Source: Nitrososphaerota archaeon (GTDB taxonomy: Archaea > Thermoproteota > Nitrososphaeria > Nitrososphaerales > Gagatemarchaeaceae). From it: a stretch of 36,900 bases of DNA. The DNA is taken from contig JAPCJK010000007.1 of assembly GCA_027886975.1 (NCBI GenBank), positions 1-36,900 on the forward strand, read 5' to 3'. Shown here piece by piece: positions 4,418 through 35,476 of this stretch. How positions within the stretch are numbered: position 1 is the first letter of the stretch; each line of letters opens with the position of its first letter. Made by a program: the position numbers and the translations under genes. Under the pieces are notes generated by a model that did no database searches, was not told where the DNA came from, and saw nothing but the letters and a program-made list of their open reading frames with translations.

Positions 4418-4505
4418 CAGGGTCTACCGCTGATTCGTTGAAATGGGTTTCGAAGGAAGCGCCGGGGGTAGGATTCGAACCCACGCGACCAGAAGGTCAC
4501 GGGCT

Positions 4506-4519
4506 GACTGGTCTTTGAT
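4506..4519 (-). other. Predicted tRNA intron 2 (14 nt), canonical 37/38 position
   Basis: Relaxed BHB: outer helix CGGGC/GCCCG, bulges TCA and AGA, central helix CTCG/CCAG with one mismatch, tiny inner TC-AAA-GA hairpin. Confidence 0.7.
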
Positions 4520-4525
4520 CTCGAG

Positions 4526-4555
4526 TTGCGGACCCGTTTCGTCGCCTGGCGGGTT
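4526..4555 (-). other. Predicted tRNA intron 1 (30 nt), between positions 31/32
   Basis: BHB: central helix GCGG/CCGC, 3-nt bulges GCA and AAC, intron helix ACCCG/CGGGT. Confidence 0.75.
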
Positions 4556-4695
4556 GCCCGCGCATTAACCACTCTGCCACCCCGGCTCAACTGAAGCCTG
4601 CCTCCGACCTCTATTTGTTCGATTTGGGTGAGGCTTTCTTCGCACGCGAGGAGCGCTCGACGATGTAGCTCCAAGTGACGAAGCAATCGACCAGC

Positions 4696-7824: not shown

Positions 7825-9297
7825 GTGTCCGAGTCAAAAGCCATCGCCAGGGTTCTGTCGTCGGGCTACATGCTGGATGCAAAAGCGTTCGAAATGATCA
7901 GCCAACTCCCTGACGGAGTAGATGCTGAGGGCCTGGTAGAGAAGCTTCTCGAGCAGAAGGCCGGCATTCTTGGGGAGGGAAAAGTAATCACCGAAGGGGA
8001 TGTAGCAAGGCTGATTCCCCAAGATCAGCCTGAGCAGCAGGAGACCCTGGTAGTCCATGACCCGGCGGAGCTCGAGGTAATCTCAGACCCCACCCAGGCA
8101 ATCGCCCCGGCACAGGGGGCCGAGGGGTTCGGCAGGCTCTTTCAAGACAGGTACGAAAGGCTCCTCTCAATCGTCAGAGAGAGACTCGACACCAAGAGCA
8201 GCACGTCTGTTTCTGCGACAAGGAACCTGGTTCCGGGGAAGAAAGTCAAGGTGGCCGGGCTCTTGTCCGACCGTTCGAGCAGGCGAGGCTTCGTCGAACT
8301 GAAGGTCGATGACCCGACGGGGACAATGAAGGTCGTATGCCAGGACAAGGTCGTAGAGAAGGCCGCCCTTGAGGCGCCGCTGGACAGCATGGTGGTGGTC
8401 GAGGTTTCGAAGGGAAGGTCTGGCCAACTGTTCACCGATTCAGTCATCCTACCCGACGTCCCCGGGCGGAAGGCCGTGGCCTCTTCCCACAGGGTCTACG
8501 CAATCTTGCTTTCTGACCTTCACATAGGCAGCAGGATGTTCCTGGCAGACGACTTCCACCGTTTCCTGCAATGGCTCAATGGGGGGCTCGGGGACAAGGA
8601 CGTGGTCAACAGGGTGAAGTATCTCGTCATAGCCGGAGACCTGGTGGACGGGGTCGGCGTGTACCCCGGACAGGAGTTCCAGCTGGCTGAGAGGGACCCC
8701 AAGAAACAGTACGAGATGGCGGCCGAACTGCTGAGGCAAGTGCCGGGGCATATCCAGATTGTAGTGTCGCCAGGGAACCACGATGCGGTCAGGCAGGCGC
8801 TGCCGCAGCCGGCGGTGTCGGTCGACATGGCGGAGGGGTTGTACTCCATGGAAAACTTGCGCTGGGTAGGCGACCCTGCATACATCAAACTGCATGGTGT
8901 GACGTTCCTCGTCTATCACGGCAAGAGCCTCGACGATGTGATTGCTACCACACCAAACCTGGCTTACGACAGGCCCACCGAGGCGATGAAACTGCTGCTG
9001 AGAGCGCGGCATCTGTCCCCGACTTATGGGAAGCGGACCGCACTTTCCCCGGAGATACGTGACTACATGGTTGTGGACCGGGTCCCGGACGTCTTCCATG
9101 TTGGCCATGTGCACACCTACGGCGAGCTCTCCTACCGGGGCACACTCCTCGTCAACTCTGGGACGTGGCAAGCCCAGACCAACTTCCAGTCCAACATGGG
9201 CCTGGAACCCACGCCGAGCATAGTCCCTGTCATTGACCTCTCCACGCTGAAGACCGTGAGGCGCAACTTCGGCGCGGCCGGATTTCCCGCTTCCTAG
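7825..9297 (+). CDS. polB: DNA polymerase II (PolD) small subunit DP1
   Basis: OB fold then calcineurin-like exonuclease motifs: LLSDLHIGSRMF, VIAGDLVDG, SPGNHDAVRQALPQP, FHVGHVHTYGE, NSGTWQAQT. Confidence 0.95.
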   Translation: MSESKAIARVLSSGYMLDAKAFEMISQLPDGVDAEGLVEKLLEQKAGILGEGKVITEGDVARLIPQDQPEQQETLVVHDPAELEVISDPTQAIAPAQGAEGFGRLFQDRYERLLSIVRERLDTKSSTSVSATRNLVPGKKVKVAGLLSDRSSRRGFVELKVDDPTGTMKVVCQDKVVEKAALEAPLDSMVVVEVSKGRSGQLFTDSVILPDVPGRKAVASSHRVYAILLSDLHIGSRMFLADDFHRFLQWLNGGLGDKDVVNRVKYLVIAGDLVDGVGVYPGQEFQLAERDPKKQYEMAAELLRQVPGHIQIVVSPGNHDAVRQALPQPAVSVDMAEGLYSMENLRWVGDPAYIKLHGVTFLVYHGKSLDDVIATTPNLAYDRPTEAMKLLLRARHLSPTYGKRTALSPEIRDYMVVDRVPDVFHVGHVHTYGELSYRGTLLVNSGTWQAQTNFQSNMGLEPTPSIVPVIDLSTLKTVRRNFGAAGFPAS

Positions 9298-10484
9298 TTC
9301 GCAGCGCCGAACGTAGTGTCTTCGGAAAACGTCTTCTCGAGCGCATCCTTCCCTATCAGGAGTTGAATCTTCTTGGTCCGCCCTCGCCTTCCCTTGCTTA
9401 CAACCGAGGCCTCGACAAGGCCCAGAAGGTCGAGGTCTCCTAGGATTCCGCTCATCCGTCTCTGAGTGAGGGTCTCGACGCCGATCTTCTTGCATAGGTT
9501 GCTGTAGGCTATGTAGAGCTCGCCCGTGTTTGTCCCCCCGTTGAACATCGAGACTGCGAGGAGGATGGCCTTGTTCTGGACTGGGAGGGAACGTATCGCC
9601 TCGTCCACCCTGTCGTGCTCCATCTTGTCAGAGGCCCTCCTGATGCAGGATTCGTCGATCTCGCTGAGGCCCTCTCTCTCTGCGACCTCTCCGGCGATCC
9701 TAAGCAGGTCGATGGCCCTCCTCGCGTCACCGTGCTCCGACCCGGCTATGGCCGCGCACATGTTGATCGCTGCTGATGAAGCGACCGAGGGCCTGAACGC
9801 CATCTTTGCCCGCTCGGTCAGGATTTCTCTAAGCTCGTCGACCGTATAGGGCGGGAACACGAGTTCTTCTTCGCTGAGACTGCTGAGCACCCGGGGGTCG
9901 AGGCCCTCCTTGAACTTCAGGTCGTTCGATATGCCGACGAGCGCCAAGAAACCCGGGGCGAGTCGCTCGCCTGAGCGGGTGAAGGCATAGAGGATGTCAT
10001 CACCGAAGAGTTTTACGAGGTAATCAATTTCATCGAGGACGAGAACCACCTTCTTCTTGTTGGATTTGATATTGTCTGAGATTCTGTCGACGACCTCTCC
10101 GATCGCCAGCCCAGTCAGAGGTATCTGCTTCTCCTTCCTCAGGTCAAGGAACTTCGCGAAGTCCGCGAGCGTCCTGTATTCACCGTCGGCCAGCCTGGTG
10201 TTGACGTACGCCAGGATTAGGTCGGAGGTATTGGCTTCGGCCTTCAGCTTTGACAGCACATAGTTGGTTACGGCCGTCTTTCCCGTCCCTGTCTTCCCGT
10301 AGAGAAGGAGGTTGGAAGGTTTGGAGCCGCGGAGTATCGGGGCAAGGACCTGAGCGATGGCCTTGGTCTGGGCGTCGCGGAAAGGGAGGGTCGCAGGCAC
10401 ATACTCGGGCCTCAGGGCCTCGCGGTTGACGAACAGGGGCCTCCCCTCCTTGGCCCTGCGGAAAATCTCGTCTATCCCGGACAA
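9294..10484 (-). CDS. cdc6: Orc1/Cdc6 replication initiator
   Basis: AAA+ Walker A LLLYGKTGTGKTAV, Walker B VVLVLDEIDYLV, sensor/lid GDARRAIDLLRIAGEVAE, C-terminal wHTH. Confidence 0.95.
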   Translation of the reverse strand: MSGIDEIFRRAKEGRPLFVNREALRPEYVPATLPFRDAQTKAIAQVLAPILRGSKPSNLLLYGKTGTGKTAVTNYVLSKLKAEANTSDLILAYVNTRLADGEYRTLADFAKFLDLRKEKQIPLTGLAIGEVVDRISDNIKSNKKKVVLVLDEIDYLVKLFGDDILYAFTRSGERLAPGFLALVGISNDLKFKEGLDPRVLSSLSEEELVFPPYTVDELREILTERAKMAFRPSVASSAAINMCAAIAGSEHGDARRAIDLLRIAGEVAEREGLSEIDESCIRRASDKMEHDRVDEAIRSLPVQNKAILLAVSMFNGGTNTGELYIAYSNLCKKIGVETLTQRRMSGILGDLDLLGLVEASVVSKGRRGRTKKIQLLIGKDALEKTFSEDTTFGAAN

Positions 10485-10490
10485 ACAAGA

Positions 10491-10508
10491 AACAGTGGAA
10501 ACATTGGT
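10491..10508 (+). promoter_or_regulatory. Mini-ORB-like element in the cdc6 upstream region
   Basis: aaCAGTGGAAACattggt contains the ORB core CAGTGGAAAC immediately upstream of cdc6. Confidence 0.5.
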
Positions 10509-10665
10509 CTAGATAAGGTGTTGCGGGGGATTGGGAGTTGGCCCCGCGGCAACCCTCCGATATCGTGAGGAGTTATGCGCCGTTGACTATGGATATCCAC
10601 GACGCCATGATACATTGTTGATGAAAAGGGGGAACTACTGATTCTGTCATGGCTGACAACCGCGC

Positions 10666-10813: not shown

Positions 10814-11941
10814 CTATTTTTCGACCAGGGCCGCAGCTTTGGACAAGGCTGCTTCCATACTCCCGACGTCGAACCTCCAGCTGTCATGGTCGAACATGTG
10901 ATGCGGTATCGTGTAGAGATAGGCCTCGTTGGGTTTTATGAAACTCGTCTCGAGGTTCGAGTCCAACTCTCCCACTTCGTCGTTCAAGTAGCTGAATGTA
11001 GGTATCAAGTCATAGACCGGCACGTGTAATGTGGCGATGTAAGTGCCGTCTTTGAGCAGGTCTTCGGCCCACAGATATGGGATCTTGCTGACAGCCCGTT
11101 GGACCCTCGTGAATTCGCCCTGGCTCAGGTTCCTGAAGGTCAGCCTGGTCGTGTCGACCGAATGGATAGGCTTCTTCTCGATGTCCCTGGTCCACCTAAC
11201 AAAGAACGAAGGCACCATCTTTTCCTTCATCACGTGGGACCGGTAATGGTACTCGAGGGTCTTCCCGTGGACCTTCTGGTTTCGGGCGATGCCCACAGTG
11301 TGCTGCATGGCGTCTTTCTGGAGCTCTTTGATCAGAAGAAGGTCATAGTAGTCAGGTAGGGCTCCAGAGGCTTGCCGCTCGGCCTGCAAGGAAGTCCGGC
11401 CCTGGCTCGTAACCTTGTTCCATTCGACCTCCCATCTGCCTGAGCGGAAGTTGAAGAACCTTGGATTCATCGGCGGGTGCCTGCTTACGAGTGCCTCCTC
11501 CAGGGAGAACCCAGTCAGAATCTTGTTATCAACGAGGTGGGAAAGAAGAGTTCGGAATTCTTCCGTCGTCCCGACCGGGAGGCTGAATATGGCAAGGAAG
11601 CGCCCCTGTGGGAGGACCTTGGTGTAGTAGGTCAGGTATCCCACTCGGTTCATTGCGTCCAGCAGTTTGGTCGCCGAGCTGTAATAGGGCCCCGAAAAAT
11701 GCAGGGTTGCCCAGTGTTGGACTAGGCCGATCTTTCGGTGGTCAACCTCTGCGTGAAATTTGAACCCTAGTCTGGCCAGCCTCTTCTTGATTTGATACCT
11801 GACCGTTTCCTGATGTGCTCCGGTCAGGCGTGCAATCTGTGCGATGTTCCGCGGACCAACGGAACCGATGGCCGTGATTATTCGTGCCTCCAGGTCCGGG
11901 AACTCGGCTTTGAAAGACTGAACAGACTTGGTGCGAGCCAA
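10814..11941 (-). CDS. Two-HTH transcriptional regulator (Lrp/AsnC-like wHTH), paralog A
   Basis: PRNIAQIARLTGAHQETVRYQIKKRLARLGF HTH; overall layout shared with 14942..16117 and 16280..17407. Confidence 0.75.
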   Translation of the reverse strand: MARTKSVQSFKAEFPDLEARIITAIGSVGPRNIAQIARLTGAHQETVRYQIKKRLARLGFKFHAEVDHRKIGLVQHWATLHFSGPYYSSATKLLDAMNRVGYLTYYTKVLPQGRFLAIFSLPVGTTEEFRTLLSHLVDNKILTGFSLEEALVSRHPPMNPRFFNFRSGRWEVEWNKVTSQGRTSLQAERQASGALPDYYDLLLIKELQKDAMQHTVGIARNQKVHGKTLEYHYRSHVMKEKMVPSFFVRWTRDIEKKPIHSVDTTRLTFRNLSQGEFTRVQRAVSKIPYLWAEDLLKDGTYIATLHVPVYDLIPTFSYLNDEVGELDSNLETSFIKPNEAYLYTIPHHMFDHDSWRFDVGSMEAALSKAAALVEK

Positions 11942-14941: not shown

Positions 14942-16117
14942 TCAGCTTGTCATCCCCTTTATCTCCAGCGCAAGTCTTTCGAACTTGCTTAACAGTTCCA
15001 TTTGGTCAAACTTCCATTTCTTGGCTTCTTGGTCGTAGAGGCTGGGTGAGATTGAAAACCTCAACGCGTTAGCTTGGTCCATGAAGTGCCAAGAAGCTTT
15101 CTGTCGAACTGGCGATGTGACATCCTTCACGAATGATAACGCTTCGGTCATCGTTTCCATCGGGAAGGCGATTTGGGCAAAATAGTTCTGGCCTCCAGCC
15201 TCGAACCAGACGAATGGTAATTGATTGACTTTCGTCATCAGCTCCATCCTCTCGGTCTCAGTCACGCCGCTTACCATCAACTCGAGCCACATGTACCTGT
15301 GTCTCCGGTGAAGTGCCCTCTCTAACTTCGGGTCGTATCGCGTCCCTGTCCAATTGACCATATACCCTTTGAGCAACCCATTTCCAATTATGTGCTTGCG
15401 ATAGTGCCAAGTCAAGGTCTTGTAATTCACTTGAATCTTATCTCCAATTTCAGTTAAGGAAGCGCTAGGATCTATCTGGAGTTGCTCGATTATCTTCAGG
15501 TCAGTCGAGTCGATCTTGGCTTTGGCAGAAGGAGAGTAGGCAAAAGAGCCAGGATCTAACTTGGGCTTCGACGCCCAGTCGTATTGCCAAGCGTCGTGCT
15601 CGAAGTCGTAAATTTCCGAATGCATTGGAACCACCCTTGCCCATTCGAAAGGAACTGCGTGGATTGAACTGAACACTCCTTTCTGCTTGAGAGTGTGCAT
15701 GAACCGAATCCAGTCACTCGAGTGCTCCTGAGGAACATTTGCGTGAATAGAGTACAGGTCCTCAGGAAGGGCCTTCATGAAGCTGGTAAGGTAACACAGT
15801 TCGTTCATCGCCATCAGTATTGCATCCCCATAGGGCCTGTAGTCCTCCGAAAATTCCGCGAATGCGATTACCCTCCTAAGACCCAACCTTTCGTGATTGG
15901 GGATTGCCGCCAAAGTGTAGCCTCTCTTCAGCAATCTTTCCTTGTACCAATATCTCGCCGTCTCCTTGTGAACTCCGAGTTCCCTTGCAATCTGAGTAAT
16001 CTGAGGCCCTTCCTTCGTAATCAGCTTGACAAGCTCAGCAATCTTGGAATTCGTGTCTTGGTTGTTGGGTGAACGTTCGGTCGGGCGTTCAGTTCTGGCG
16101 TTGGGCTCTAGAACCAT
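14942..16117 (-). CDS. Two-HTH transcriptional regulator, paralog B
   Basis: PQITQIARELGVHKETARYWYKERLLKRGY and second HTH STDLKIIEQLQIDPSASLTEIGDKIQVNYKTLTWHYRKH. Confidence 0.8.
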   Translation of the reverse strand: MVLEPNARTERPTERSPNNQDTNSKIAELVKLITKEGPQITQIARELGVHKETARYWYKERLLKRGYTLAAIPNHERLGLRRVIAFAEFSEDYRPYGDAILMAMNELCYLTSFMKALPEDLYSIHANVPQEHSSDWIRFMHTLKQKGVFSSIHAVPFEWARVVPMHSEIYDFEHDAWQYDWASKPKLDPGSFAYSPSAKAKIDSTDLKIIEQLQIDPSASLTEIGDKIQVNYKTLTWHYRKHIIGNGLLKGYMVNWTGTRYDPKLERALHRRHRYMWLELMVSGVTETERMELMTKVNQLPFVWFEAGGQNYFAQIAFPMETMTEALSFVKDVTSPVRQKASWHFMDQANALRFSISPSLYDQEAKKWKFDQMELLSKFERLALEIKGMTS

Positions 16118-16279: not shown

Positions 16280-17407
16280 TTGAAGCCTGACCTAAGAGAA
16301 AAACAGGCCAGACTAGCTACACTGATGCAGGAACGCGGGCCCAGGATCACGGAGATTGCAAGGAAGCTTGACGAGAGTCCGGAGACAGTCAGGTACTGGT
16401 TCAAGCACAACATTCTAGGCCGAAGAGGTGTTGCGTACCAAGCTGTTCTGAACTACGAGGGGCTGGGGTTCAAGAGAATTCATGCAGTCATAGACTTCGC
16501 CGACGACTACCTACCCCATGCCAAGGAAATCCTCATCTCGATGAACAGCCTCTGCTATCTGACAAATTACTTCCGGACCTTCCCGAGCGGCTACTACGTC
16601 ATCCTTCTGACGGTGCCCTCTCAGTTTGAGCGTCAGTATCGTCGGCTGCTCGCGGACATGCAGGAGGTTGGCATCTTCCGTCTTTTGCAGGTCGACGGGT
16701 TAGACTGGATTCGAGCATCACCAATGAAGACGAAGTATTTCGATTTCGGCACGGGGAAGTGGGATTTCGATTGGTCCAAGATTGTCAGCGAAAAGAAATC
16801 GGTTGCTCCCAAGTTGAATCCGAGAGGCCTCGTTCGGTTCGACCGTGAAGACCTTCTGATACTCCAGAAGCTCCAGGTGGACGCTACGAAATCGCTCGGT
16901 AAGATTTCGCGTGAGCTGAAAATACCCTATCCCCAAGTCTACAATCATTTTGGCCATATTACCGATGCAGGGCAGGTCCTTCTTTACAGGATTAATTGGC
17001 CAGCTACTGGACCGAGAAGCCAAGAAGACCTGAAGGCGTGGCAACAGCAGCACGCCCACATGGGGATACAGTTCATTGTAAGAAGTTCGACTGAGTCCGA
17101 ACAACGTGAGCTTATGACCAAGATGGACCGGTTGCCCTTCATCTGGAGCAACGGGGTGGGCGAAGGAATTTTCTACTCGGAATTCACTGTGCCGCTCGAG
17201 TATTACTCAGAAACATTCCAGTACCTCGCTCAAGCGCTTCTCGACTCGAGGGGAAGAACTGAGTACTTCATAGGCGATCAAATCAACGCCCTTTCGTTCA
17301 CCGTCCCAACACGTCTTTACGACAAGGAAACTGAAGCCTGGACGAACAACGCGGATGAGGCCCTTACGAAGTTCAAGAACCTCGTCTTGACGCTCAACGG
17401 CAGTTAG
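16280..17407 (+). CDS. Two-HTH transcriptional regulator, paralog C
   Basis: PRITEIARKLDESPETVRYWFKHNILGRRG; second HTH REDLLILQKLQVDATKSLGKISRELKIPYPQVYNHF; clearly homologous to 14942..16117. Confidence 0.8.
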   Translation: MKPDLREKQARLATLMQERGPRITEIARKLDESPETVRYWFKHNILGRRGVAYQAVLNYEGLGFKRIHAVIDFADDYLPHAKEILISMNSLCYLTNYFRTFPSGYYVILLTVPSQFERQYRRLLADMQEVGIFRLLQVDGLDWIRASPMKTKYFDFGTGKWDFDWSKIVSEKKSVAPKLNPRGLVRFDREDLLILQKLQVDATKSLGKISRELKIPYPQVYNHFGHITDAGQVLLYRINWPATGPRSQEDLKAWQQQHAHMGIQFIVRSSTESEQRELMTKMDRLPFIWSNGVGEGIFYSEFTVPLEYYSETFQYLAQALLDSRGRTEYFIGDQINALSFTVPTRLYDKETEAWTNNADEALTKFKNLVLTLNGS

Positions 17408-29446: not shown

Positions 29447-29845
29447 CTATCTTTCAGCTACCTGAGTCGGTTTGAGGTATACTCTTCGGTATACCCAGGA
29501 ATTCCCGAACCTCTCACGCTTGATGTACTGCTTGTCAGCTAGGCGGGCGAGGTAGGTAGAGATCGTGCTGAGCTTGACAGGCTGGCTGTACTTGTCCTCG
29601 AATTCGCGGGCGACGTCGGACGATGAGAAGTCTCCTGCTGCAAACGTGGTTTCCAAAAGCGTCTGCACCTTGCCGAAGAAGGTCCCTTCGTCGGGGGCGT
29701 GGGGCGTGTGCTCCAATGACTGGTCCATCATTTCAAGCGCGTCCATGGTCTTCATCAGATCGTTGCGGGACACAGGGCCTTCTACTATGTGGAAACTCTT
29801 GCGCCCGTGTTCGTCTTCCAGCTCGAACTTCACCCGCTTCAGCAA
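29447..29845 (-). CDS. wHTH-domain protein adjacent to the ORB cluster
   Basis: DFSSSDVAREFEDKYSQPVKLSTISTYLARLADKQYIKRERFGNSWVYR. Confidence 0.6.
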   Translation of the reverse strand: MLKRVKFELEDEHGRKSFHIVEGPVSRNDLMKTMDALEMMDQSLEHTPHAPDEGTFFGKVQTLLETTFAAGDFSSSDVAREFEDKYSQPVKLSTISTYLARLADKQYIKRERFGNSWVYRRVYLKPTQVAER

Positions 29846-30000
29846 GTCAACTACTGCCCGTGGGTCCTGAAGCCCCGATAAATCCCGTCATGGTGTGAAC
29901 TTGTGAACAAGCCAGTGAGTTTGTTTGACGTCGTATTGATAGCGTACAGACCGTTCACTAGGGTTCACTCGGTCTCCTTTCAGCAGGGGTGTATAGTGGC

Positions 30001-30023
30001 TCCAATGGAAACAAAGGGGTCGG
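30001..30023 (+). repeat. ORB-like element 1
   Basis: TCCAATGGAAACAAAGGGGTCGG. Confidence 0.75.
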
Positions 30024-30058
30024 AATCGGGTGTTTTGCTGCTTTTGGGGTCGGAGTAG

Positions 30059-30080
30059 TTCCAGTGGAAATAGTGGGGTC
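30059..30080 (+). repeat. ORB-like element 2
   Basis: TTCCAGTGGAAATAGTGGGGTC. Confidence 0.75.
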
Positions 30081-30133
30081 CCCCTTTGGGGCTAGGTGAG
30101 GTATCCGTTCACTGGTCTTCACAATCGAACCCC

Positions 30134-30153
30134 CACCCCAGGCCTTCCACTGC
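30134..30153 (-). repeat. ORB-like element 3 (inverted)
   Basis: Minus-strand reading GCAGTGGAAGGCCTGGGGTGG. Confidence 0.6.
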
Positions 30154-30366
30154 AGCCTGTTTCCCCTTTAGATCCCGCACACTGTGAGTGTTTCTCCAAC
30201 AATCCGTGACCCACCTTAGACCCCAAGGCATATCCAATCCAAACCGCCTACCGAGAACGGGCTTCTTTACTTACGTAAGACTAACTGTTGCCTAAGGGTT
30301 TCTTGGAGTGGAATAACAGGAAAGGCAGGGGTGGGGCCGTTGGGTTGAACTCTGGTCTCTTCAATT

Positions 30367-32011: not shown

Positions 32012-35000
32012 ATGTCTTTTTCCGCCGACCTCGCGTGGGACCGAGTCAAGACACTCGCCCCATTCCCGGCGCGGCTCGACCAATACTACCAGGACATACT
32101 TTCGCAATACGAAGCCGCACACAGGACCGCATCGCTCGCCAGGTCCAAGGGCCTCGACCCACGTGACGTCGTCGAGAGCAAGACGGTCTTCGACCTGGCA
32201 GACAGGGTAAACCAGATGCTCCGCCTCGACCAGTTCGAGGGCCTTGTCGGCAGGCTCCGCGAGCTCCTTCACACCACGTCGAAGGAACGAGCGGCGCTCA
32301 CGATCTCACAGGAGATAGCCCTGGGAAAATTCGGCGCCCTTGAGAGGCACGAGGCCCTGAGCTACGGGATCAGAGCTGGTCTCGCGGTGATGACCGACGG
32401 TGTGACCGTGGCCCCACTCGAAGGAATCTCTGGTGTTACGATAAAGCAGAACGACGACAACAGCGACTACGTCTCCGTCTCATACGCGGGCCCCATGCGC
32501 TCTGCCGGGGGCACAGAGGCCGCGTTCTCCCTGGTCATAGCAGACCTGACCGCCAAAAAGCTCGGCCTGAGCAACTACAGGGCCCGGCCGGAGGAGATCG
32601 ACAGGTTCGCCGAAGAGGTCAGAATCTACGAACGCGACGTCGGCAACTTCCAGTACAAGGTGACCGACGACGACATCAGGCGCGCCATCTCCAACCTCCC
32701 GGTGGAAATCGACGGCATCGAGACCGACCCCATTGAAGTCGTCGTTCACAGGAACCTGAAGCGGGTCTCCACCGACAGACTCAGGGGCGGCGCGCTCCGA
32801 GTATTGAACGACGGCGTCATCGGCCGGGCAAACAAACTTTCGAAGAAGCTGGCGAGCCTGAGCATATCGGGGTGGGAGTTCCTCGACCAGCTCAAGGGGG
32901 CCACCCAACAGACCACCAACGAGACGGAAAAGGCAGGGGCCCACTTCGAGGATGTCATCTCCGGGCGGGCAGTGCTCTCCATGCCAAGGAGCAAGGGCGG
33001 CTTCAGGCTGAGATACGGCAGGTCCATGAACACCGGTCTTTCGACGATAGGGATCCACCCGGCCGTTGCAAGCTTGCTCGACTACCCAGTGGTGACAGGC
33101 ACCCAGGTGAAAGTCGACATGCCGGGGAAGGCCGCCACCATCGCATTCGTGGACTCAATCGAAGGGCCCACAATACTAACCAAGGACGGGAGTCTGATGA
33201 GGATATCCACGGTCGCCGACGCAGAATCGATTCACGACCAACTCGATAAGATCGTAGACCTCGGGGACGTCCTAATCAGCTACGGTGACTTCCTCGAAAA
33301 CAACAAGGCCCTCCCGCCCTCGCCTTACGTACCCGAATGGTGGGTCCAAGACTTCGCCAAAGCGCTGGCAGGGACCCGCGGGGCCTCGGAGGTACTGGCC
33401 ATAGCCGGGGTCACCCACGAGAGGGCCTTACAGCTTGTAGCTTCTCCTGCCACAATACCATCAGCGGCCGAAGCCATCGCCATCTCTCAATCGCTTGGAA
33501 TCCCATTTCACCCATCGCATTCACCGAGGTTCGACCGGGTCAGCCCCAACGAAATCGCAGAGCTGAGGAAGAATTCGAGAATCGAGGGGACAGACGTCGT
33601 CGTAGACGTCAGGTCGAACCAGGCGCGATGGATCCTCAACGCATGCCTGATCGAACACAGAATTGAAGGAGACTCGGCTATAGTCATCGGTGACCCGGCC
33701 CTGGTCCTAAGGACCCTCCTGAGACTCAACGAGCCCGAGGTGGTCCTCCCTCCGGACGAACCTGATTACATCAGGAATCTGACTGGGATTCAACTAGGGC
33801 GCTTGAGCACCACGACAATAGGCGTCAGGGTCGGGAGGCCGGAGAAGGCCATGGTTAGACGTCTGAAACCTCCAGTCCACACGCTTTTCCCTGTGGGCCT
33901 GGCAGCTGGACCATCACGCGACGTCTTCGTCGCCTCGAAGGAGGGGAGCGTCGAGGTCGAGGTTGCCAACCTCTACTGTCCCGAATGCGAGAAGAGGCGC
34001 CTGGGCTCCAAGTGCGAAATCTGCGGCGCGGCTACGGTCCCGTACAAGTCCTGCCCCAGGTGTGGCACTACCACCCAGGAGGAGGCATGCCCCAATTGCA
34101 AAACCAAGACCACGCCGTTTTCCAAGATGGACTTCGACTTCGCCGCGAAGCTCAACGACATCAGGAAAAGGATCCCCCACAACCAGGCCAAGGCAGTCAA
34201 AGGGGTCCGAGGCCTGATGAGCGTCTCGAAGATGCCCGAACCACTCGAGAAGGGGGTCATCAGGAGCAGACACGACGTCTATGTCTACAAGGATGGGACG
34301 CTCAGGATAGACGCAACGAACGCACCCCTGACCCACTTTAGGCCTCGGGACGTCAAGGCTGACATACAAACGCTGATCCGTCTCGGATATTCTCAGGACA
34401 ACGAGGGCCTCCCTCTCCAGAGGGACGACCAGATACTCGAGCTGAAGCCCCAGGACATAATCGTCCCGGTCGACATCGCCGGAGACCTCGTCAGAATGGC
34501 ACAGTGGGTCGACGACGAACTTCAGAGCCTCTACGGCCTGAAGCCATTCTACAACGTCAATGGGCCTTCAGACCTGATGGGCAAGCTTGTCATCGGCCTC
34601 GCCCCTCACACCTCCGTTGGTGTCGCCGGCAGGCTCGTAGGTTTCTCAACCGCCCAGGTCTGTTTCGCCAACCCCTACTGGCACGCGGCGAAGAGGCGCG
34701 ACTGTGACGGGGACGGGGACTCGATACTCATGTTGGTGGACGCCCTGCTCAACTTCTCACTGGAGTACATACCGCACCAGATTGGGGGCCTGATGGACAC
34801 CCCGCTCTTGGTCCAGCCCATCCTTCTTCCATCGGAGGTGGACGAGCAGGCGCACAACTTCGACATCGCTTCCTTCTATCCTCTAGAGTTCTTCGAGAAG
34901 ACGCAAACCAATCCTGCCGCGGCTTCCCTCGCCGGCCTGATCGAGCGCATCGGGGACAGGCTGGAGGACGAGGACCAGTTCTACGGCTATGGGTTCACAC

Positions 35001-35476
35001 ATATGGCCAGCGCCCTGACCCTCAGGCGTTCTAGGGGTGCCTACTCGACCCTTCGCACCCTGAACGAAAAGATTTCGAAGCAGATCGAAGTGGCTTCGAA
35101 GATAAGTGCGGTGTCCACCAAGGAAGTGGTCGAATCCATCATCAGGACGCATTTGATCAGGGACATAATGGGGAACGCCAAGAAGTACGCGACCCAATCG
35201 TTCAAGTGCAAAAAGTGCGGATTGACCATGCGCAGGCCTCCCCTTGCATGGAAATGTCCCAATTGCATGGGAGACATCAGAGTGACTCTCACAAGGGCCT
35301 CAGTGGAAAAGTATCTCTACATCGCCCAAAGGCTCGCTCGAGATTATGACGTCGACCCCTACCTGAGGTCCAGGTTAGACATGCTCCAGAGGGAGCTTGA
35401 CCAACTCTTCCAGGGCCCGAGGAGGGCCGACCAGCTCGAACTGACTGACTTTCTGAAGCCGACCCTAGTTGAATGA
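32012..35476 (+). CDS. polC: DNA polymerase II (PolD) large subunit DP2
   Basis: NVNGPSDLMGKLVIGLAPHTSVGVAGRLVGFS, RRDCDGDGDSILMLVD active site, zinc fingers CPECEKRRLGSKCEICG...CPRCG...CPNC; no intein seen. Confidence 0.97.
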   Translation: MSFSADLAWDRVKTLAPFPARLDQYYQDILSQYEAAHRTASLARSKGLDPRDVVESKTVFDLADRVNQMLRLDQFEGLVGRLRELLHTTSKERAALTISQEIALGKFGALERHEALSYGIRAGLAVMTDGVTVAPLEGISGVTIKQNDDNSDYVSVSYAGPMRSAGGTEAAFSLVIADLTAKKLGLSNYRARPEEIDRFAEEVRIYERDVGNFQYKVTDDDIRRAISNLPVEIDGIETDPIEVVVHRNLKRVSTDRLRGGALRVLNDGVIGRANKLSKKLASLSISGWEFLDQLKGATQQTTNETEKAGAHFEDVISGRAVLSMPRSKGGFRLRYGRSMNTGLSTIGIHPAVASLLDYPVVTGTQVKVDMPGKAATIAFVDSIEGPTILTKDGSLMRISTVADAESIHDQLDKIVDLGDVLISYGDFLENNKALPPSPYVPEWWVQDFAKALAGTRGASEVLAIAGVTHERALQLVASPATIPSAAEAIAISQSLGIPFHPSHSPRFDRVSPNEIAELRKNSRIEGTDVVVDVRSNQARWILNACLIEHRIEGDSAIVIGDPALVLRTLLRLNEPEVVLPPDEPDYIRNLTGIQLGRLSTTTIGVRVGRPEKAMVRRLKPPVHTLFPVGLAAGPSRDVFVASKEGSVEVEVANLYCPECEKRRLGSKCEICGAATVPYKSCPRCGTTTQEEACPNCKTKTTPFSKMDFDFAAKLNDIRKRIPHNQAKAVKGVRGLMSVSKMPEPLEKGVIRSRHDVYVYKDGTLRIDATNAPLTHFRPRDVKADIQTLIRLGYSQDNEGLPLQRDDQILELKPQDIIVPVDIAGDLVRMAQWVDDELQSLYGLKPFYNVNGPSDLMGKLVIGLAPHTSVGVAGRLVGFSTAQVCFANPYWHAAKRRDCDGDGDSILMLVDALLNFSLEYIPHQIGGLMDTPLLVQPILLPSEVDEQAHNFDIASFYPLEFFEKTQTNPAAASLAGLIERIGDRLEDEDQFYGYGFTHMASALTLRRSRGAYSTLRTLNEKISKQIEVASKISAVSTKEVVESIIRTHLIRDIMGNAKKYATQSFKCKKCGLTMRRPPLAWKCPNCMGDIRVTLTRASVEKYLYIAQRLARDYDVDPYLRSRLDMLQRELDQLFQGPRRADQLELTDFLKPTLVE

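Follow-up and report, generated by a model that had tools for sequence, protein, structure and literature searches.

The window, that is the whole 36.9-kb stretch of DNA analysed here, derives from a Nitrososphaerales (thaumarchaeal) genome of 2.05 Mb. In this window, a 521-bp gap between a winged-helix gene (start 29845) and a Rieske gene (30367) houses three Origin Recognition Boxes (ORBs). These boxes are present in the sequence where the original prediction had placed them; it had listed the three correctly but had overlooked an ORB4-like element (30307-30336) and three pairs of TTCAC motifs. The relevant features are as follows (positions in the window, strand, description).

9294-10484, minus strand: cdc6/orc1 initiator gene, Orc1-1 type (Cdc6_C and lid domains)
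10493-10516, minus strand: cdc6 promoter element TTATCTAGACCAATGTTTCCACTG, TATA-like box plus mini-ORB
29447-29845, minus strand: gene for a small winged-helix protein (132 aa), ORB-linked; proposed binder of the TTCAC pairs
29893-30336, no strand: candidate oriC, conserved non-coding block (from identity, 22-origin alignment and skew turning points)
29893-29908, plus strand: pair A, GTGTGAACTTGTGAAC, tandem GTGAAC, equal to a TTCAC pair on the minus strand
29953-29968, plus strand: pair B, GTTCACTAGGGTTCAC, GTTCACN5TTCAC, conserved in the 22-origin alignment
30001-30021, plus strand: ORB1, TCCAATGGAAACAAAGGGGTC, exact ORB consensus, genome-unique together with ORB2
30060-30080, plus strand: ORB2, TCCAGTGGAAATAGTGGGGTC, exact ORB consensus, direct, 59 bp from ORB1
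30107-30122, plus strand: pair C, GTTCACTGGTCTTCAC, flanked by the G-strings of ORB2 and ORB3, which face each other
30134-30154, minus strand: ORB3, TGCAGTGGAAGGCCTGGGGTG, inverted, about 73 bp from ORB2, doubled G-string, 4 mismatches
30216-30279, plus strand: conserved block TTAGACCCCAAGGCATATCC, ACCGAGAACGGGCT, TTTACTTACGTAA between ORB3 and ORB4 (conserved alignment columns)
30263-30322, no strand: candidate duplex unwinding element, least stable 60-bp window of the origin
30307-30336, plus strand: ORB4-like element, AGTGGAATAACAGGAAAGGCAGGGGTGGGG, kept in nearly all of 22 family origins
32012-35476, plus strand: polC (DP2, DNA polymerase D large subunit; Pfam), about 3 kb from the ORBs in many families

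The intergenic region thus carries several boxes with a dyad and a G-string. ORB1 and ORB2 are exact matches to the consensus TCCARTGGAAAYNNNGGGGTC. At up to 3 mismatches, 0.07 sites were expected in the window and two were observed. Genome-wide, ORB1 and ORB2 are the sole sites within 2 mismatches; the five other matches carry 3 mismatches each, approximately the level of the reversed-pattern control. ORB3, with its 4 mismatches, is diverged and the weaker box, but it reaches 17.5 bits on the ORB matrix, a score attained by the three origin boxes only among the 3.0 million positions of a relative (G005), and its position is occupied by a near-perfect inverted ORB in relatives. Both orientations are therefore represented, ORB1 and ORB2 being direct and ORB3 inverted, and this disposition of two boxes one way and one the other, already noted in the original prediction, is the same in relatives. 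A common ORB motif, TCCA[CG]T[TG]GAAA[TC][GA]AAGGGGT, has been reported (PMC4164010). In the alignment of 22 family origins, the ORB4-like element takes the form AGTGGAAACA..GAAA..GGGG.GG; it is probably bound by Orc1.

Two further readings were discarded. The G-tract at 30043-30055, proposed earlier as an extra element, is only partly conserved and was rejected as an origin element. An rRNA/tRNA or other structured RNA was also ruled out, as the gap has no Rfam match.

Conservation of the block and separation from cdc6

Although non-coding, the block of about 440 bp (29893-30336) retains 66-76% identity over most of its length in several relatives. Across the 22 aligned origins, the near-invariant elements are pairs A, B and C, the ORBs, the 30216-30279 block and the ORB4-like element. 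The family of the window genome (labelled f1, placed by genome searches) shares the arrangement ORB1(+), 59 bp, ORB2(+), about 73 bp, ORB3(-), with the 59-bp spacing in most members, and other members of its order have the same origin neighbourhood. When 61 relatives were scanned with the ORB pattern at up to 2 mismatches, 44 gave matches, mostly as a pair or triple at one place, while reversed-pattern controls were near zero; in relatives, ORB matches recur about once per genome. Conservation in relatives had been proposed as a check of the origin, and boxes, spacing and non-coding block do recur in genus, family and order. The candidate unwinding element between ORB3 and ORB4 is not strongly AT-rich (about 58% A+T); in 10 of 18 family members the weakest duplex has a similar position, +200 to +203 from ORB2.

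Two observations concern the relatives themselves. One MAG, G029, holds two slightly different copies of the whole origin (G029:C84, G029:C187), probably from two strains. In the same-genus MAGs G001, G008, G011, G013, G017, G019, G021, G022 and G030, polC, the main cdc6 and the ORBs are absent together, as is the winged-helix gene where searched; some of these are about 88-91% complete and one is in 3 contigs. Their origin-proximal contigs may have been lost in binning, or their biology may be different.

The genome encodes an Orc1-1-type initiator, whose best solved relatives are Sulfolobus Cdc6-1 (2qby_A) and Aeropyrum 2v1u. An initiator gene adjoining an archaeal origin is usual, not universal, and here cdc6 is about 20 kb away, as the original prediction had remarked. 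In most related lineages, cdc6 is adjacent, its start some hundreds of bases away from the ORBs, and polC lies within several kb. Because the distance from cdc6 to the ORBs is about 300-400 bp in most of them, the separation is a derived state. In the subclade of the window genome it amounts to 1.9-2.6 kb (G020, G010, G015), 11.3 kb (G009) and 20 kb (window); in the more distant G004 it is likewise within 1.9-2.6 kb, and in G023 and G018 cdc6 and ORBs are on separate contigs. The gene order of the window equals that of a canonical genome with the origin-to-PcrB segment inverted, followed by insertions. Such an inversion would have brought the origin beside polC, itself an ancient origin neighbour.

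The promoter element of cdc6, TTATCTA(G)ACCARTGTTTCCACTG, consists of a TATA-like box followed by an ORB half. It is the fourth-best ORB match in the window, has travelled with cdc6, and precedes this gene in the readable f1 genomes whether ORBs are nearby or not; no exact count is given because the regex scan upstream of cdc6 overlooked some genomes. The mini-ORB is a likely autoregulatory site of cdc6. A diverged second Cdc6-like fragment, with 31% identity over the C-terminal part and cut by the contig start, was found in the window genome (G000:C116:10-411). The window also carries three paralogs of about 375-391 aa (10814-11941, 14942-16117 and 16280-17407), one with an AsnC-type HTH match. 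In G015, G010 and G020, the relative of the 10814 paralog separates cdc6 from the winged-helix/origin module; in other members of the subclade it adjoins one or the other.

TTCAC pairs and the winged-helix gene

In each TTCAC pair the half-sites are 8-10 bp apart, and the pairs are interleaved with the ORBs. The three pairs in the origin are all those of the window, and pairs are nearly origin-exclusive genome-wide: the form GTTCACN5TTCAC occurs three times in the genome, two of them at the origin. The sequence of pair A was recovered at every family origin found, once with a single mismatch, and has zero exact copies elsewhere in 61 genomes. G005 has 12 TTCAC pairs, 3 of which fall in the 370-bp origin (p 2e-9), no other 370-bp stretch holding more than one. 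In other families, the corresponding places, between and beside the ORBs, are occupied by TTAAC or mixed pairs, which gives an order-wide form TT(C/A)AC. We know of no description of this element, and it is not mentioned in the part of the origin literature that was searched.

The winged-helix gene adjoins the ORBs in 39 of 40 order-level loci obtained by profile search. In the exception, G037, the start of the contig truncates the locus, and the gene lies at the opposite end of the contig, about 2.5 kb off; G053, a member of the same family, likewise has a distance of about 2.5 kb. Among 30 further loci, ORBs lie upstream of the gene in 26 and pairs in 26, the remainder being contig-end cuts (G037, G104) and two Nitrosocaldus-like genomes. 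The gene is present in 229 of 251 genomes of the class, mostly in single copy, and its linkage to the ORBs persists in nearly all genomes checked, even where cdc6 has moved. AlphaFold gives a confident winged helix in the C-terminal half (pLDDT about 85-91) and a poor N-terminal half, mean pLDDT 70. Foldseek matches are generic winged-helix regulators and partition proteins (E 0.004 or worse), and a search of PDB sequences gave no convincing relative (best E 0.55). In G000, G023 and G015, the N-terminal half is strongly unlike that found in other members of the genus, yet the C-terminal halves are almost the same, which resembles an exchange of one half.

From its position and linkage, the winged-helix protein is the likeliest protein to bind the TTCAC pairs and a candidate second origin factor, a proposal to which we give an even chance. 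Evenly balanced, too, is our confidence that origins of the class Nitrososphaeria comprise two systems, Orc1 with its ORBs and a nearly universal winged-helix protein with TT(C/A)AC pairs, where the winged-helix gene, not cdc6, would stay origin-linked. Alternatively, with a probability somewhat below one half, the pairs are bound by Orc1, by the second Cdc6 paralog or by a general nucleoid protein, and nothing but a promoter embedded in the origin ties the winged-helix gene to it. That promoter does overlap pair A, which is enough alone to keep both together. However, pair B is found 129 bp and pair C 283 bp upstream, in the midst of the ORBs, where they would be superfluous for an autoregulatory promoter, and the linkage of the winged-helix gene is order-wide while that of cdc6 has been lost. 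A recognition-helix residue (L/M versus F/Y) covaries with TTCAC versus TTAAC; this is suggestive, but it was set aside as evidence because it is confounded by phylogeny and has an exception (G048, mixed).

Binding of the pairs by the winged-helix protein would have a parallel in Sulfolobus, where the ucm motif is a second origin motif with a binding protein, UBP (PMC12141716). Both systems share a second conserved motif between inverted ORBs and a small DNA-binding protein as second factor. The proteins differ: UBP is a saddle-shaped beta-hairpin protein, whereas the window protein is a predicted winged helix and is not of the UBP-like beta-hairpin type. UBP is not among the 50 fold matches listed for it, and homology was ruled out by fold description and search.

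Strand composition and assignment of the origin

Since the window genome is a MAG of 151 contigs, its full skew curve cannot be drawn; chromosome-wide skew was taken from relatives and its own skew from the window only. G005 is a complete genome of the same genus (1,504,237 bp) with ORBs at about 1,099,100. Its GC disparity has a single peak at 1,115,635, 16.5 kb from the ORBs, and a trough at 351,321, 747.8 kb from them, or 49.7% of the genome (half a chromosome). The MK disparity minimum is 7 kb from the ORBs, and the disparity ranges were matched by 0 of 2000 block shuffles. Cumulative G-C is maximal, not minimal, at this origin, and the leading strand is therefore C-rich here; the usual bacterial polarity is the opposite.

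In G023, where the ORBs are on contig C44 and cdc6 on C88, the MK minimum (416,999) falls inside the ORB cluster (416,955-417,107) and the GC maximum 1.3 kb off. The cdc6 contig has no skew turn, with the same sign throughout. G023 therefore shows that the skew vertex goes with the ORBs rather than with cdc6. For the window itself, raw GC disparity is maximal at 30,101, and MK disparity has its turning point at 30,119 (p 0.0008); this signal is marginal, as the detrended GC extreme is at 23 kb and the raw maximum and MK curve alone point to 30 kb. A skew analysis had been suggested with the original prediction, and in the window, G005 and G023 alike the inflection was at the ORBs or close to them. 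The skew of the two relatives is the strongest evidence for an origin over a mere cluster of binding sites.

Given unique ORBs, conserved geometry and block, and these skew turns, the gap very probably holds oriC, the probable single chromosomal origin of this genome, of the ORB/Orc1 type; conservation and skew thus bear out the candidate first put forward. Many archaea use several origins per chromosome, and a second diverged Cdc6-like gene is present in the window genome (the C116 fragment) and in relatives. We nevertheless consider it highly improbable that the site is one of several origins, or dormant, while most initiation takes place at another, such as one near the second Cdc6 paralog: the G005 disparity curve is a single V, its one strong ORB cluster is the orthologous one, and the second paralog seems to resemble non-initiator Orc proteins. 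Least probable of all, and a very slim chance, is that there is no active origin here and that Orc1 uses the boxes to regulate the winged-helix gene (and the Rieske gene). Pair A does lie directly upstream of the winged-helix gene's TATA-like box, and archaeal Orc1 paralogs can serve as transcription regulators (PMC9738581). Against this, strand composition turns at this site in the window and at its orthologues in G005 and G023, the initiator gene and polC adjoin the same boxes in most relatives, and several ORBs over 330 bp exceed the need of a promoter.

With Sulfolobus oriC1 and Pyrococcus oriC, the window origin shares the ORB consensus (TCCA-GAAA plus G-string), inverted boxes, an Orc1-1-type initiator and a single skew vertex (here in a relative); it differs in the initiator gene 20 kb off, the interleaved TTCAC pairs and a weak unwinding element. 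The closer systems are Nitrosopumilus maritimus, whose single origin was mapped experimentally (PMC4010727), and Nitrosocaldus, whose predicted origin was positioned ahead of ORB repeats and cdc on the model of N. maritimus (PMC5797428). Class, ORBs and the cdc6/winged-helix/PcrB/polC neighbourhood (in related genomes) are common to these and the window; there, in contrast, cdc6 is adjacent and pairs are partly TTAAC instead of TTCAC, and in Nitrosocaldus-like genomes the winged-helix gene is about 2.5 kb away.

We propose that the Orc1-1-type Cdc6, encoded 20 kb away, would bind ORB1, ORB2, the inverted ORB3 and probably ORB4, as suggested by the sites and the protein family, and would then load MCM. 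The likeliest place for the DNA to melt would be the weak stretch that separates ORB3 from ORB4, and forks would depart both ways, which the skew supports. Cdc6 probably also binds the mini-ORB at its own promoter, tuning its own expression. As a second layer, at even odds, the winged-helix protein would bind the three TTCAC pairs.

In the Thaumarchaeota, origin mapping has been done in one cultured species, and the literature covered offers no dissection of these origins. The rearranged lineages offer a natural experiment: after cdc6 moved, the block of about 440 bp, including 30216-30279, and the TTCAC pairs stayed at the skew vertex, while the TATA-plus-mini-ORB element left with cdc6. Owing to these differing fates, origin elements can be told apart from initiator-promoter elements without genetics. 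An archaeal origin thus need not adjoin its own initiator gene. As an ORB origin, the site is of a known kind; what is new is that it lies apart from cdc6 and has a second conserved system of sites and gene, with the winged-helix protein as a concrete candidate for a second factor at the origins of an archaeal group that ranks among the most abundant on Earth.

Elsewhere in the window, a 127-nt tRNA match by Rfam at 4460-4586 (minus strand), missed by ARAGORN, is probably an intron-containing tRNA.
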